Positions 1,951-30,377 of a stretch of DNA of 43,208 bases are shown here, in pieces; the first letter of the stretch is position 1, and each line of letters opens with the position of its first letter. The stretch comes from Clostridiales bacterium (GTDB taxonomy: Bacteria; Bacillota; Clostridia; Christensenellales; Pumilibacteraceae), in the NCBI GenBank assembly GCA_029070965.1, contig JAIEBI010000035.1, forward strand, positions 1 through 43,208. Reading direction: 5' to 3'. The notes under the pieces are model-generated. The model worked only from the letters and a program-made list of their open reading frames with translations. It did not search any database and was not told where the DNA came from. Made by a program: the position numbers and the translations under genes.

Positions 1951-2089
1951 GAACAAGTTCTCGCGCTTTAATATGCCGTGTTGCAAAAGGCGTAAGCGGC
2001 GCATAGGGGCTATGGTGTTTTAAACCGCGCATAACGGTTATAATCATTAACTAATGATAATTTTTTGACATACACATTGGAGGTAAAAA

Positions 2090-4456
2090 ATGTACAAAGT
2101 AGTCAAGAGGGACGGAAAGCTTTCGGGGTTTGACATCTCTAAAATCAGCCAAGCCATACGCAAGGCGTTCGAGGCGGTAGGCAAGGAGTATAACGACGAC
2201 GTTATCGATCTTATCGCGTTGCGTGTTACGGCGGATTTTGCGGGCAAGGTCAAGAACGGAAAAGTTGCCGTCGAGGACATTCAGGACAGCGTCGAGCAGG
2301 TGCTTATTCAAGCGGGGTATGCCGACGTTGCCAAGTCGTACATTCTTTACCGCAAACAGCGCGAAAAGATTCGCAATATGAAATCCACCATTCTCGACTA
2401 CAAGGATCTTGTAAACAGCTACGTCAAATCGACCGACTGGCGCGTCAAGGAGAACTCCACCGTTACCTATTCGGTGGGCGGACTTATTCTTTCCAACTCG
2501 GGCGCGATAACCGCCAACTACTGGCTGTCGGAAATATACGACGAGGAAATAGCTAATGCGCACCGCAGCGCGGACATACACATTCACGATATGTCCATGC
2601 TTACCGGCTACTGCGCGGGCTGGTCGCTGCGTCAGCTCATACAAGAGGGCTTGGGCGGACTCCCCGGCAAAATCAGCTCGTCGCCCGCAAGCCACTTGGC
2701 AACGCTGTGCAACCAAATGGTAAACTTTCTCGGCATTATGCAAAATGAATGGGCGGGCGCGCAAGCGTTCTCGTCCTTCGATACCTACCTTGCGCCGTTC
2801 GTCAAGGTGGACAACCTCACTTACGGCGAGGTTAAAAAGTGCATCGAGTCGTTCATTTTCGGCGTGAACACGCCGTCGCGCTGGGGCACGCAGGCGCCGT
2901 TCAGCAATATTACGCTGGACTGGACATGCCCGCCCGACCTTGCCGAACAGCAAGCGATTGTCGGCGGCAAGCCCATGGACTTTAAGTACAAGGATTGCAA
3001 GCGCGAAATGGATATGGTGAACAAGGCGTTTATCGAAATCATGATCGAGGGCGACGCCAACGGCCGCGGCTTCCAGTACCCCATACCCACGTATTCCATT
3101 ACCCGCGACTTTGACTGGTCGGAGACCGAAAACAATAAATTGTTGTTCGAGATGGCCGCCAAGTACGGCACGCCGTATTTCTCCAACTATATCAACTCGG
3201 ACATGGAGCCGTCCGACATCCGCAGTATGTGCTGCCGCCTGCGTCTTGACCTGCGCGAGCTGCGCAAAAAGTCGGGCGGGTTCTTCGGCAGCGGCGAAAG
3301 CACCGGCTCGGTCGGTGTTGTCACCATCAATATGCCGCGCATTGCCTACCTTGCGGAAGACGAAGCGGATTTTTACGCACGGCTGGACAAGCTTATGGAC
3401 ATATCGGCGCGCTCGCTCAAAATCAAGCGCGATATCATAACCAAGCTTATGGACGAAGGCTTGTATCCGTACACCCGTCGTTACCTCGGCTCGTTCAACA
3501 ACCACTTCTCCACAATCGGACTTGTAGGTATGAACGAGGCGGGACTCAACGCCAAATGGTTAAGAGCCAACCTTACCGACCCGCGCGTACAGGAGTTTGC
3601 CAAGGACGTGCTTAACCATATGCGCGACCGATTGGTCATTTACCAAGAACAGTACGGTGACCTTTACAATCTTGAAGCGACGCCTGCGGAGTCCACGACG
3701 TACCGTCTTGCCAAGCATGACAAGGCGCGTTATCCTGAAATCATCACCGCCAACGAAAACGGCACGCCGTACTATACCAACAGCTCGCACTTGCCGGTTG
3801 GATACACCGAGGACGTGTTCAGTGCGCTCGACGTTCAGGACGAGCTGCAAACTCTGTATACCTCGGGTACCGTTTTCCACACCTTCCTCGGCGAAAAGCT
3901 TCCCGACTGGAAGGCGGCGGCAAAGCTGGTGCGCACTATTGCGTCAAACTACAAGCTTCCGTATTTCACACTTTCGCCCACGTACTCGGTATGCCGCGAC
4001 CACGGCTATATCGCGGGCGAGGTGTACACTTGCCCCAAGTGCGGTGCAAAGACCGAGGTCAACAGCCGCATAACCGGTTACTACCGTCCCGTGCAAAACT
4101 GGAACGACGGCAAGGCGCAGGAGTTTAAGGACCGCAAAACTTACAACACAATGAAATACGACACCCCGCACACCGGACATTGCGTTGCCAAGAAAGAGGT
4201 TGCCGCGCAGTCCGAAATAACGGGCAATGTGCATTATGAGCTGTTTACCACGCCTACATGCCCCAACTGCAAGGTTGCTATACCCATGCTTAAAGACGCG
4301 GGGATAGCGGTGGATATAGTGGACGCGACGGCTCAGCCCGACAGCGCCAAAAAGTACGGCATTAAGCAGGCGCCTACCTTGGTAGTCACCAATGGTACCG
4401 AAACCGCCAAGTATTCGGGCGTTGCGGAAATTCGTAAATTCTTAAACAAGAATTAA
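2090..4456 (+). CDS. nrdD: Anaerobic (class III) ribonucleoside-triphosphate reductase with fused glutaredoxin-like domain
   Basis: 788 residues. NrdD reduces ribonucleoside triphosphates to deoxy forms with a glycyl radical and works only without oxygen. Domain order: ATP-cone at about 1-95; the ten-stranded barrel with active-site Cys175 (GYCAGWSL); a zinc site with CPKC at 648-651; the glycyl radical loop RITGYYRPV with Gly663; then an extra domain at about 714-788 starting VHYELFTTPTCPNC. Its CPNC (724-727) and later APTLVV motif are those of a glutaredoxin/NrdH-type redoxin. Family members usually end soon after the glycyl loop, so the redoxin is a fusion. TrxB follows 29 bp on. The activating enzyme nrdG, often adjacent, is not in the window. 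GGAGG at 2079-2083 fixes the start. Expression is probably repressed by NrdR. Confidence 0.96.
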   Translation: MYKVVKRDGKLSGFDISKISQAIRKAFEAVGKEYNDDVIDLIALRVTADFAGKVKNGKVAVEDIQDSVEQVLIQAGYADVAKSYILYRKQREKIRNMKSTILDYKDLVNSYVKSTDWRVKENSTVTYSVGGLILSNSGAITANYWLSEIYDEEIANAHRSADIHIHDMSMLTGYCAGWSLRQLIQEGLGGLPGKISSSPASHLATLCNQMVNFLGIMQNEWAGAQAFSSFDTYLAPFVKVDNLTYGEVKKCIESFIFGVNTPSRWGTQAPFSNITLDWTCPPDLAEQQAIVGGKPMDFKYKDCKREMDMVNKAFIEIMIEGDANGRGFQYPIPTYSITRDFDWSETENNKLLFEMAAKYGTPYFSNYINSDMEPSDIRSMCCRLRLDLRELRKKSGGFFGSGESTGSVGVVTINMPRIAYLAEDEADFYARLDKLMDISARSLKIKRDIITKLMDEGLYPYTRRYLGSFNNHFSTIGLVGMNEAGLNAKWLRANLTDPRVQEFAKDVLNHMRDRLVIYQEQYGDLYNLEATPAESTTYRLAKHDKARYPEIITANENGTPYYTNSSHLPVGYTEDVFSALDVQDELQTLYTSGTVFHTFLGEKLPDWKAAAKLVRTIASNYKLPYFTLSPTYSVCRDHGYIAGEVYTCPKCGAKTEVNSRITGYYRPVQNWNDGKAQEFKDRKTYNTMKYDTPHTGHCVAKKEVAAQSEITGNVHYELFTTPTCPNCKVAIPMLKDAGIAVDIVDATAQPDSAKKYGIKQAPTLVVTNGTETAKYSGVAEIRKFLNKN

Positions 4457-28683: not shown

Positions 28684-28821
28684 TCGTCGTCGTATTTGCT
28701 CCCGTCAATAATCTCAATAGACTTTATTGACGGGGATGCGATAATAACAGTTCGAATAGACGAAAAACCGCCGGCGTATCTAACGCAAAAGCGTGACGAG
28801 CACGGCAATTATACCAAATAG
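28684..28821 (+). pseudogene. Coding remnant directly downstream of tRNA-Ser
   Basis: An open frame of 45 codons runs from the 3' end of tRNA-Ser(CGA) to TAG 28819-28821, with natural-looking protein sequence (ISIDFIDGDAIITVRIDEK, later KRDEHGNYTK) and GC-rich codons, but no start or ribosome binding site. It looks like the C terminus of a lost gene, a common sight next to tRNA integration sites. The family is not recognised. Confidence 0.4.
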
Positions 28822-28825
28822 CATA

Positions 28826-28858
28826 AAAGGCACTTGCGAACAATCTCGAAGTGCCTTT
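28826..28858 (+). terminator. Terminator of the tRNA cluster
   Basis: AAAGGCACTT (28826-28835) and AAGTGCCTTT (28849-28858), perfect 10-bp stem, followed by ATTCTTT. Confidence 0.82.
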
Positions 28859-28867
28859 ATTCTTTAC

Positions 28868-28896
28868 TTGAAAAAACTTATATACTATGTTATAAT
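28868..28896 (+). promoter_or_regulatory. Promoter of a candidate small RNA
   Basis: TTGAAA (28868-28873), 17-bp spacer, TATAAT (28891-28896); predicted start near 28903. Confidence 0.72.
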
Positions 28897-28902
28897 ATTT
28901 CT

Positions 28903-28983
28903 ACGATAAACAATAATTTAACGTAGAACAACTATGAAAATAGAGGAACTGAAAGCCGTTACATGATGTAGCGGCTTTTTTAT
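28903..28983 (+). ncRNA. Candidate ~80-nt small RNA
   Basis: A self-contained unit: promoter at 28868-28896 and a strong terminator AAAGCCG...CGGCTTT with inner TACAT/ATGTA (28952-28978) and six T. A 5' hairpin CTACG/CGTAG (28901-28926) precedes it. A 10-codon frame (MKIEELKAVT, 28934-28966) runs into the terminator but lacks a ribosome binding site. No known family is recognised. Confidence 0.55.
28952..28983 (+). terminator. Terminator of the candidate small RNA
   Basis: AAAGCCG-T-TACAT-G-ATGTA-G-CGGCTTT followed by a T-run; 12 base pairs in two helices. Confidence 0.88.
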
Positions 28984-29001
28984 TTCTAGCGTTGATAATT
29001 C

Positions 29002-29030
29002 TTGATATTCTTGATAAAAAGTGCTATAAT
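29002..29030 (+). promoter_or_regulatory. Promoter of the structured RNA
   Basis: TTGATA (29002-29007), 17-bp spacer, TATAAT (29025-29030). The expected start, seven bases on, is G29037, exactly the first base of the basal helix of the RNA. Confidence 0.72.
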
Positions 29031-29036
29031 AATTAT

Positions 29037-29352
29037 GCGAATCCATAATGACACCCTTTAACCCCCTTAACAACAAGGGGTAGGATTGTATTATTTTTTG
29101 GAAAGTAGTTCAAAATCGGTAGTAATACTGTTCAAAACTACTTTCTACGGAAAAAGGGTTTATGGATTCGCACTCTGGAACGGTATTCTACTTTACGGGT
29201 GAGCCGACAAAAGAGAACAAATAAAGAAAAGCCGCTTTAGCGGTAGGTTTGAGAAAGTAATGCGGTTGGCTGACTTTTCGACGAGCCTATAGGCTCAGCA
29301 GGTAATATGCCCTAAGGGGCAAGTGCAAACCACCGGCTAAGCCGGTGGTTTT
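29037..29352 (+). ncRNA. Candidate structured non-coding RNA (~316 nt), family unknown
   Basis: No protein frame fits this stretch, but helices are abundant. Basal helix: GCGAATCCATAA (29037-29048) with TTATGGATTCGC (29160-29171), 12 bp perfect, continued inward by ACCCTTT (29053-29059) with AAAGGGT (29153-29159). Enclosed hairpins: CCCCTT-AACAAC-AAGGGG (29063-29080) and GAAAGTAGTT (29101-29110) with AACTACTTTC (29136-29145). The 3' domain has CCGC/GCGG (29232-29243), GAGCCT-AT-AGGCTC (29283-29296), GCCC/GGGC (29309-29320) and the terminator stem. The unit has its own promoter. It does not match what I know of RNase P, tmRNA, SRP or 6S RNA. The terminal hairpin resembles ends of IS200/IS605-type elements and their omega-RNAs, a possible alternative; no transposase or nuclease gene is adjacent. 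Confidence 0.6.
29327..29352 (+). terminator. Terminator of the structured RNA
   Basis: AAACCACCGGC (29327-29337), loop TAA, GCCGGTGGTTT (29341-29351), perfect 11-bp stem with a short T-run. Confidence 0.82.
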
Positions 29353-29406
29353 AAATGTAAATAAAGACGGGATTTAAACCCTGATAAACAAAACAACTTA
29401 AATGCG

Positions 29407-29435
29407 TAGACATGCGGCAAAAAATTTGTTATAAT
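29407..29435 (+). promoter_or_regulatory. Promoter of the LysR gene
   Basis: TAGACA (29407-29412), 17-bp spacer, TATAAT (29430-29435). Confidence 0.7.
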
Positions 29436-29453
29436 TGCAACGGAGGAATCTGA

Positions 29454-30377
29454 ATGAATATCTTGCACATGAAATACGCCGTAGAGGTTGCGAAATTCGG
29501 GTCTATAAACAGGGCGGCGGATGCGTTGTACGTGGCGCAGCCCAGCTTAAGCCGTTCTATCAAAGAACTCGAGACCGAATTGGGAATAGTCATTTTCGAC
29601 CGCTCGGCAAAGGGAATGAACTTAACTCCCGAGGGCGAGGAGTTTATAGGCTACGCAACTAACGTGCTCAGCCAAATACACGATATCGAAAGAATGTATC
29701 AAGGAAAATTGCCGCGCAAAAAGAGGTTTTCTATATCGGTGCCGCGAGCAAGCTACATATCCGACGCGTTTACAAGGTTTTGTTCTAAGCTGGGCGACGA
29801 GCCTATGGAGATTTTTTATAAAGAGACCAACGCGTACCGAGCGATACAAAACATAATAAACTCCGATTACAAGCTGGGAATTATTCGCTACGCCGCCCAC
29901 TTCGATCAATACTTTAAAGCGTCGCTTGAAGAAAAAGAGCTTTTACACGAGCTTATTTCGGAGTTCGTTTACGTTCTTGTAATGCACAAAGAAAGCCCGC
30001 TTGCTTCTAAACGAGAAATACATTTTAACGACCTGACCGACTTAATAGAAATTGCGCACGGTGATCCGTTTGTTCCGTCGCTGTCTACGGCGCGCGTGCG
30101 TAAAGAAGAGCTGCCCGACAACATCAGCCGCCGAATATTCGTGTTCGAGCGGGGGAGTCAGTTCGACTTATTATCCAGCAATAAAAACACGTTTATGTGG
30201 GTGTCGCCGCTACCTACGTATTTACTCGAGCGGTACGGGCTTATACAGGCGCCTTGCGCAGACAACAACAAGGTTTACAAAGACGTGCTCATACGTAAAA
30301 AGAATTACGTTTTATCCGAGTTCGACAAGCGGTTCATAGACGAGATAGCCGTATCTAAGAAAGATAGCCGTATCTAA
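29454..30377 (+). CDS. LysR-family transcriptional regulator
   Basis: 307 residues. The N-terminal winged HTH (1-62) shows MKYAVEVAKFGSINRAADAL, YVAQPSLSRSIKELETELGI and FDRSAKGMNLTPEGEEF; the periplasmic-binding-protein-like effector domain runs from about 90 to 295. GGAGG at 29442-29446 fixes the start. It is co-oriented with the redox cluster and probably activates it through the palindrome at 30435-30452. A 19-bp tandem duplication at the very end (30344-30381) shifts the frame, so the last residues are DSRI instead of a predicted MYLQYGRQ ending. The effector ligand is unknown. Confidence 0.93.
   Translation: MNILHMKYAVEVAKFGSINRAADALYVAQPSLSRSIKELETELGIVIFDRSAKGMNLTPEGEEFIGYATNVLSQIHDIERMYQGKLPRKKRFSISVPRASYISDAFTRFCSKLGDEPMEIFYKETNAYRAIQNIINSDYKLGIIRYAAHFDQYFKASLEEKELLHELISEFVYVLVMHKESPLASKREIHFNDLTDLIEIAHGDPFVPSLSTARVRKEELPDNISRRIFVFERGSQFDLLSSNKNTFMWVSPLPTYLLERYGLIQAPCADNNKVYKDVLIRKKNYVLSEFDKRFIDEIAVSKKDSRI

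Follow-up and report, generated by a model that had tools for sequence, protein, structure and literature searches.

Leader RNAs before SLOG genes in a clostridial order, probably riboswitches, and an orphaned copy fused to an IS200 end

The unit between the tRNA cluster and lysR

The window, meaning the whole stretch of DNA that was analysed, comprises 43,208 nucleotides of contig JAIEBI010000035.1 (assembly GCA_029070965.1) from a Clostridiales bacterium of the GTDB order Christensenellales, family Pumilibacteraceae. Between a cluster of tRNA genes and lysR it carries 316 nt, 29037-29352, that the original prediction took to be a large autonomous structured RNA gene of unrecognized family. 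After the tRNA-Ser gene there is a hairpin, AAGGCACTT...AAGTGCCTTT at 28827-28857, that is perhaps the terminator of the tRNA operon. The features of the unit and its flank, with the names used below, are:

28951..28979, + strand: upstream terminator-like hairpin, from the terminator scan
29002..29030, + strand: leader promoter, TTGATA-17-TATAAT with extended TG; a similar TTGATATT...TATAAT precedes most printed copies of the leader, by reading
29037..29191, + strand: part A, truncated copy of the SLOG leader, with an aptamer-like domain and a loop-pairing tail (relatives L017, L018, L020, L025 and others); matched by covariance model R1 at 106.3 bits, in part by construction since the window is among the 19 seed rows
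29037..29048, + strand: P1, 5′ strand, pairing with 29160-29171
29053..29059, + strand: P2, 5′ strand, pairing with 29153-29159 in the MFE fold
29063..29080, + strand: P3 hairpin in the MFE fold, with a hairpin at the equivalent place in most single-sequence folds, by reading
29099..29147, + strand: P4-P5 hairpin carrying P6 (29117-29130, CGGTA-GTAA-TACTG), from single-sequence folds
29119..29129, + strand: P6 loop strand GUAG(U)AAUACU, complementary to 29182-29191
29160..29171, + strand: P1, 3′ strand; the window has A-U at pair 5 (2/47 copies; C-G in 40/47) and U-A at pair 6 (10/47)
29177..29183, + strand: antiterminator 5′ arm GGAACGG, identified from relatives, whose partner CCGUUCC is missing in the window
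29182..29191, + strand: tail GGUAUUCUAC, which can pair with the P6 loop; its end is the last base of part A, where homology to L017 ends
29192..29224, + strand: IS200-type tnpA remnant, ten final codons encoding FTGEPTKENK plus the stop (L016, L094 and L096 have a homologous place)
29225..29358, + strand: right-end region of IS200-family type, with a subterminal hairpin ACCACCGGC-TAA-GCCGGTGGT at about 29328-29350

A good part of the original prediction stands. The perfect 12-bp helix with which the unit was said to begin is found in the MFE fold together with the two hairpins that it encloses, and the promoter is where it was placed, giving a predicted start near 29037. Seven promoter-like sites were found in 771 bases compared with 2.2 ± 1.5 in shuffles, three of them scoring 11/12. 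Folding of the 316 nt gives −115 kcal/mol; 100 dinucleotide shuffles average −80.2 ± 5.1 (z −6.85), and none of them is as stable. In the window only three tRNAs attain an Rfam gathering score, and the best sub-threshold match in 28690-29460 is sroD in the 3′ part (28 versus 50 bits, E 0.0031). A 6S-like RNA, considered on account of the long hairpin, was rejected in view of the lack of an Rfam match.

The single unit does not survive comparison with relatives. A search of 61 related genomes split it, with 5′ pieces (the promoter, or P6 loop to tail) matching in G001, G005 and G013 and 3′ pieces matching in G025, G026 and a separate place in G005. Homology of the 5′ RNA to L017 stops at CTAC, 29191, and homology to the IS200 right end of L016, L094 and L096 starts at 29192, and because of this junction one 316-nt RNA is rejected. 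As judged from these alignments the unit is a chimera, joined at 29191/29192, of a damaged SLOG-leader copy and an IS200 3′ end.

By homology, part B, which begins at 29192 and extends to about 29352, is the 3′ remnant of an IS200-family element, made up of the last 10 tnpA codons and the right end. This assignment follows from the tnpA C-terminus and right-end homology in L016, L094 and L096, and from the Y1_Tnp (PF01797) matches of the open tnpA pieces of L016 (E 1.8e-14) and L082 (E 3.3e-21). The view that no protein frame explains the unit is accordingly not quite right, as 29192-29224 encodes FTGEPTKENK, with which an IS200 TnpA ends, and a stop; its equivalent in L016, where tnpA is spread over two frames, is YIDPFTGEEVKGSK-stop. 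What had been read as a perfect terminator consists of the hairpin of the IS end with TTTTAAA after it and is absent from the terminator-scan output, while the remark that the last hairpin resembles IS200/IS605 ends was apt, since it belongs to an IS200-type end. Part B has the TnpA C-terminus and right-end hairpin of IS200 insertion sequences, and the relatives have an HUH Y1 transposase followed by such a hairpin, whereas the window keeps the 3′ end only. Something similar to 29188-29365, in part the hairpin only, is present in 9 of 74 genomes of the family, the window's own included. In L016 an STnc490-like stretch lies 5′ of tnpA (48.6 bits versus a gathering score of 56, E 1.8e-7); STnc490 belongs to IS200. 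Another leader, too, has pieces of IS200 tnpA on its upstream side, no more than about 1.5 kb away (L082, 146-695, minus strand).

The leader family and its conserved domain

Part A belongs to a family. Positions 28951-29040 are 80% identical to L020, and the shared block begins before the promoter and includes the 28951-28979 hairpin. A pattern drawn from the first relatives occurs in 10 of the order's 396 genomes, one of them the window's own, and its reversed form, used as a control, matched nothing among the rows shown. A slightly stricter pattern found 15 stretches in a collection of 84,980 species, all titled Clostridia or Clostridiales MAGs. R1, the covariance model, gave 37 matches in 23 of the 396 genomes of the order, including the window genome and many seed genomes. 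Its matches in the class sample were in four of 391 genomes (the window genome, G098 of the same order, L091 from outside the order and L092, judged false) and in the phylum sample in two of 398 (the window genome and L102, at 32.6 bits, judged false on reading its sequence). The R1 genome searches used stricter filters, with weak matches lost; within the searches made, the leader family appears nearly confined to the window's order.

Subtraction of six low-scoring opposite-strand hits and of L043, cut by a contig end, from 57 R1 matches left 50, and omission of L092 (28 bits, unlike the family by eye) left 49; as the L082_1556 leader is the same as L081_2902, 48 are distinct. Counts for P1 use 47 copies, L086 with its mis-set 5′ end also being left out, those for SLOG genes use 49, and those for covariation of the antiterminator and terminator use 47, which are the 48 without the window. 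The seeds were found with the P6-loop and tail motifs, so that the conservation of those parts is partly circular. Differences in length between copies spoiled the first two alignments, A1 and A2, and on alignment A3 RNAalifold gave P1, P6 and two small hairpins, of which the latter two were not used.

The scans of the window and ten relatives (Rfam 15) gave no match to the leader among 4227 families. For the ten relatives no match to the element was above gathering score, the sole match above it being an L10 leader elsewhere in L037, and in L025 there was one sub-threshold antisense overlap, with sbrA (22.2 versus 45 bits). Compared by blastn with 50,697 phage and 72,556 plasmid records, the leader at L083:2900-3180 has no match, and a stricter exact pattern has none in IMG/VR, and on these grounds a known phage or plasmid home was rejected. 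The leader family, with 48 distinct copies and no Rfam 15 match, is the main discovery and apparently undescribed. Of the suggestion that the window might hold an undescribed class of non-coding RNA, the structured family with compensatory changes stands, and the autonomous 316-nt gene does not. The check proposed with it, homologues in related genomes and covariation, yielded homologues of the 5′ part and a P1 with compensatory changes.

In the 19 seed rows six of the 12 P1 pairs have changes on both sides and 97.4% of cells are paired, compared with at most 50% in slid versions of the whole counted structure. Across 47 copies pair 3 is G-C in 28, A-U in 13, U-A in three and C-G in one, and pair 6 is G-C in 20, A-U in 16 and U-A in 10, with the 3′ strand set by best complementarity, which leans towards pairing. 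The first nine positions are all paired in 41 of the 47; L091, from outside the order, has GUCACA...UGUGAC, and L083_2462 has a broken P1 with 7/9 pairs. A conserved structured domain with compensatory changes is accordingly indicated, on P1. MFE folds of 43 of the 48 copies have two to three branches with GGUAG in the last (exactly two branches in 30/48), the exceptions being L020, L026, L070, L072 and L086. The energy of the domain has a mean z of −7.7 with 20 shuffles each, and 46/48 are below −3. The covariation counts cover P1, the loop-tail pairing, the antiterminator and the terminator, and P2-P5 are taken from single-sequence folds.

The apical loop of P6 is GUAG(n)AAUACC in the family and is complementary to the downstream tail. 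All lettered seed cells of this pairing are paired, and seven of its ten pairs never vary. By reading, it is kept by matching changes in L070 (GUAGCAAUACAC with GUGUAUGCUAU), L073 (AAUGCAC with GUGCAUU) and L088 (ACACC with GGUGU). Its duplex score averages 21.4 as against 10.7 for shuffled tails, with 47% of shuffled tails reaching the lowest observed score. In 14 of 16 copies, chosen by the analyst as divergent, the own tail beats other tails; the comparison fails for L061 and L062, and for L018, where the script picked the wrong loop, it stands at 12 versus 11.9. Scores are weak, 11-17, in L085, both L089 copies and L087_2371; three of these score 11, little above the average for shuffled tails. 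Attenuation by a leader peptide was rejected, as in the one frame examined, from NTG at the start, the ORF runs from 2 to over 90 codons with no conserved length.

Alternative hairpins and the genes behind them

After the tail, relatives have CCGUUCC, which can pair back with GGAACGG as an antiterminator, with the tail inside the hairpin loop, or forward with GGGGCGG as a terminator followed by a T-rich run. For the terminator, 98.9% of cells are paired in the 47 copies and 36 cells are changed on both sides compared with 10.7 in shuffles, one of five measures being not clearly above shuffles (50 of 500 as high). For the antiterminator 85.0% are paired, with 30 both-side changes compared with 14.1 in shuffles and at most 13 in slid versions, and two of five measures are not clearly above shuffles (222 and 379 of 500 as high). 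An antiterminator run of at least 8 bp is present in 42/48 copies and in 18% of shuffled downstream stretches; L028 has one mismatch. An in-register swap of GGAACGG/CCGUUCC to GCGAGA(G)/(C)UCUCGC occurs in L020 and L070-L073, and by reading L091, shifted in the alignment, has the same swap. The terminators of both L048 copies were missed by the script, their loops being longer than its limit. In the alignments P1 and the terminator covary strongly, and the antiterminator and the loop-tail pairing less so. A mutually exclusive antiterminator and terminator are predicted in 47 members, the terminator clearly and the antiterminator on three of five measures; the window, the only copy with neither helix, lacks the exclusive pair. 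A run resembling a Shine-Dalgarno (SD) sequence, AAGGAG or AAGGGG-like, is inside the terminator hairpin in most SLOG-adjacent copies, with that of L061 lying further down.

A SLOG motif, from a list made by the analyst from the first members, is present within 110 nt in 27 of 49 copies and further away in 11. In those 27 a SLOG-type ORF starts 28-51 nt past the tail, mostly just behind the T run. Judged by position and strand, the leader is 5′ of a consistent gene set. Against the link are the remaining 11 copies, among them that of the window, which lack a SLOG motif within 1200 nt, and SLOG-family genes without a leader: two genomes of the window's genus, G018 and G017, show YpsA-family matches and no leader match. 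The window genome (94.5% complete) has one leader match, no YpsA-family match at E 0.01 and none to the L020 protein at 1e-10.

Of three SLOG-type proteins, two match YpsA (PF06908) above cut-off, those of L028 (E 8.8e-10) and L034 (E 3.2e-28), and the CSCFGH-type protein of L030 matches at E 0.0037 with 17.7 bits versus a cut-off of 27.7. For the L020 protein, also of CSCFGH type, neither Pfam nor NCBIfam gives a match at E 0.01. The AlphaFold model of this protein, built on seven aligned proteins that represent all three types, has a pLDDT of 83.9, and comparison of the model with the PDB gives YpsA 2NX2 first (E 9.4e-5, TM 0.65) and then ShosA, DprA and the SLOG domain of ThsA, with rmsd of 4.7-8.5. 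The model thus predicts a SLOG fold for L020-type downstream proteins; a sequence search of the PDB with one SLOG protein gave YpsA 2NX2 at E 0.86 only. Membership of a PADLOC defence family was rejected for three SLOG proteins, since only ShosA was found, at E 0.041, for one of them.

Non-SLOG genes behind the leader comprise a type of about 250 aa (L017, L088), a 44-aa type (L026, L048), and those of L033 and L047. The two versions of the about 250-aa protein are alike by eye (..NRYVKDFT..) and have no Pfam match. In L046 a 421-aa ORF starting MASKQLLILGNGFD follows the SLOG gene about 690 nt past the leader end; it has what we take to be an AbiH-like look, with a possible defence context.

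Leaders also occur in tandem, with four units 254-261 nt apart in G175:C27, three in G138:C25, and two at each of six loci (L048, L050, L084, L087, L088, L089). By reading, each tandem unit has its own promoter and terminator, and several upstream units keep a start codon followed by an early stop. The leaders of L081 (G175:C27:8000-11450) are at 2389, 2643, 2902 and 3163, of which only the last adjoins a SLOG start, at which the contig breaks. In L083 (G138:C25), 1984-3685, a SLOG frame is behind each of three leaders; two of the frames, in near-identical repeats, have a SLOG start cut short at 83 aa with an unrelated tail attached.

A probable riboswitch, its alternatives and its meaning

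Comparison of sequences establishes the family, P1, the two exclusive helices, the gene association and the IS fusion, and we consider it likely that the part A family consists of 5′ leader RNAs acting as riboswitch-like transcription attenuators, mostly before SLOG (YpsA-like) genes, with the tail of the window leader fused to an IS200 end. The members are probably riboswitches, of a candidate class. Transcription of an intact leader would begin near the first base of P1, and the RNA would adopt the helices P1, P2, P3 and P4-P6. With the antiterminator formed, RNA polymerase would read on and the SD-like run would be free; with CCGUUCC paired to GGGGCGG, an intrinsic terminator would form and the SD-like run would be hidden too. 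A signal on the P1-P6 domain, most simply a small and perhaps nucleotide-like ligand, would pick the hairpin, whether to turn the gene on or off, and the contact of P6 loop and tail may couple the domain to that choice, with the SD-like run controlled alongside. Tandem promoters, one per copy, and a compensated P1 in ORF-less copies are not needed by a plain cis-riboswitch and count against one.

They are also what favors the best of the alternatives, a small RNA acting in trans, such as a partner or inhibitor of the SLOG protein in the layout of a type III toxin-antitoxin system, with terminator readthrough supplying the protein. The tandem units with their own promoters and terminators suit it. 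So do the ORF-less upstream units of L081, in which P1 is kept by compensation (GCUACG/CGUAGC, GCAACG/CGUUGC). Yet the alternative antiterminator with its paired changes and the SD-like run in the terminator hairpin point to control in cis, the leader is common to different genes, and several upstream units look, by reading, like duplications without a gene body (ATG, then early stop). A purely trans-acting RNA is on this balance unlikely; the upstream units are perhaps duplicates that have decayed, or the RNA could have a trans role as well.

The likeness to ToxIN-like type III toxin-antitoxin loci, which consist of a promoter, a structured RNA (sometimes in tandem), an attenuating terminator and an ORF, extends to the order of these parts in the leader loci. 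In contrast, the ORF behind the leader is usually a SLOG gene and not a ToxN-type nuclease, the RNA has one fold of about 125-170 nt instead of short repeats, and there is an antiterminator. T-box leaders switch between terminator and antiterminator as the SLOG leader would, but for the latter no T-box is among the Rfam matches listed, reading revealed no T-box sequence, and none of the genes seen behind it is an amino-acid gene. Riboswitches with intrinsic-terminator platforms share with the leader the 5′ position, the conserved multi-helix domain, the exclusive hairpins and often one kind of gene downstream; the leader differs in an apical loop that can pair with a tail in the antiterminator loop, in a promoter for each tandem unit and in having no Rfam match.

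There are two further alternatives. One intact autonomous 316-nt non-coding RNA gene would account for the strong fold over the full length, the intact promoter and the IS hairpin at the end, but is barely credible with homology changing partners at the junction, a tnpA C-terminus in part B and part A joined to part B in none of the other copies read. A guide RNA of the omega or HEARO-like kind, from an IS605-type element, to which the IS200-family end with its hairpin lent some color, is rejected as hardly tenable, as no HEARO or omega family is among the matches listed in the Rfam scans of the window, L016, L019 and L021, the adjacent remnant is of tnpA, not of iscB or tnpB, and part A recurs before SLOG genes.

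In the window, the tail of the leader is fused to the last ten tnpA codons and the IS200 right end, presumably by deletion. Promoter and domain are intact. Part B stands where relatives have the terminator, the 3′ arm of the antiterminator and the gene, which makes the window copy an orphan, and with these missing its transcript would run on into the IS end. Control of lysR by the relic is not needed, since lysR has its own promoter-like site at 29407-29435. The copy carries a lesson, in that an orphaned leader fused to an IS end can mimic a large new RNA gene.

A 2019 paper describes YpsA as a SLOG protein with effects on cell division and oxidative stress resistance, the SLOG superfamily as binders of nucleotides or ligands, and the precise function of YpsA as open (PMC6459960). 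Titles and the beginnings of abstracts of open-licence PMC papers yielded no description of a leader RNA for SLOG, YpsA or DUF1273, and none of these three terms is in the main texts of PMC11109978 and PMC8632094. A more ambitious proposal, and one that we rate as decidedly improbable, is a new riboswitch class in which a nucleotide-type signal, for instance an NAD- or ADP-ribose-derived messenger of the kind that SLOG domains bind, turns on SLOG conflict or cell-division genes in tandem arrays with a promoter per aptamer, so that the RNA would be a sensor for an alarm molecule. At the level of the family, what has come to light is a well-supported orphan regulatory RNA before genes of SLOG proteins, and its ligand, once found, would also point to the signal of the SLOG protein.
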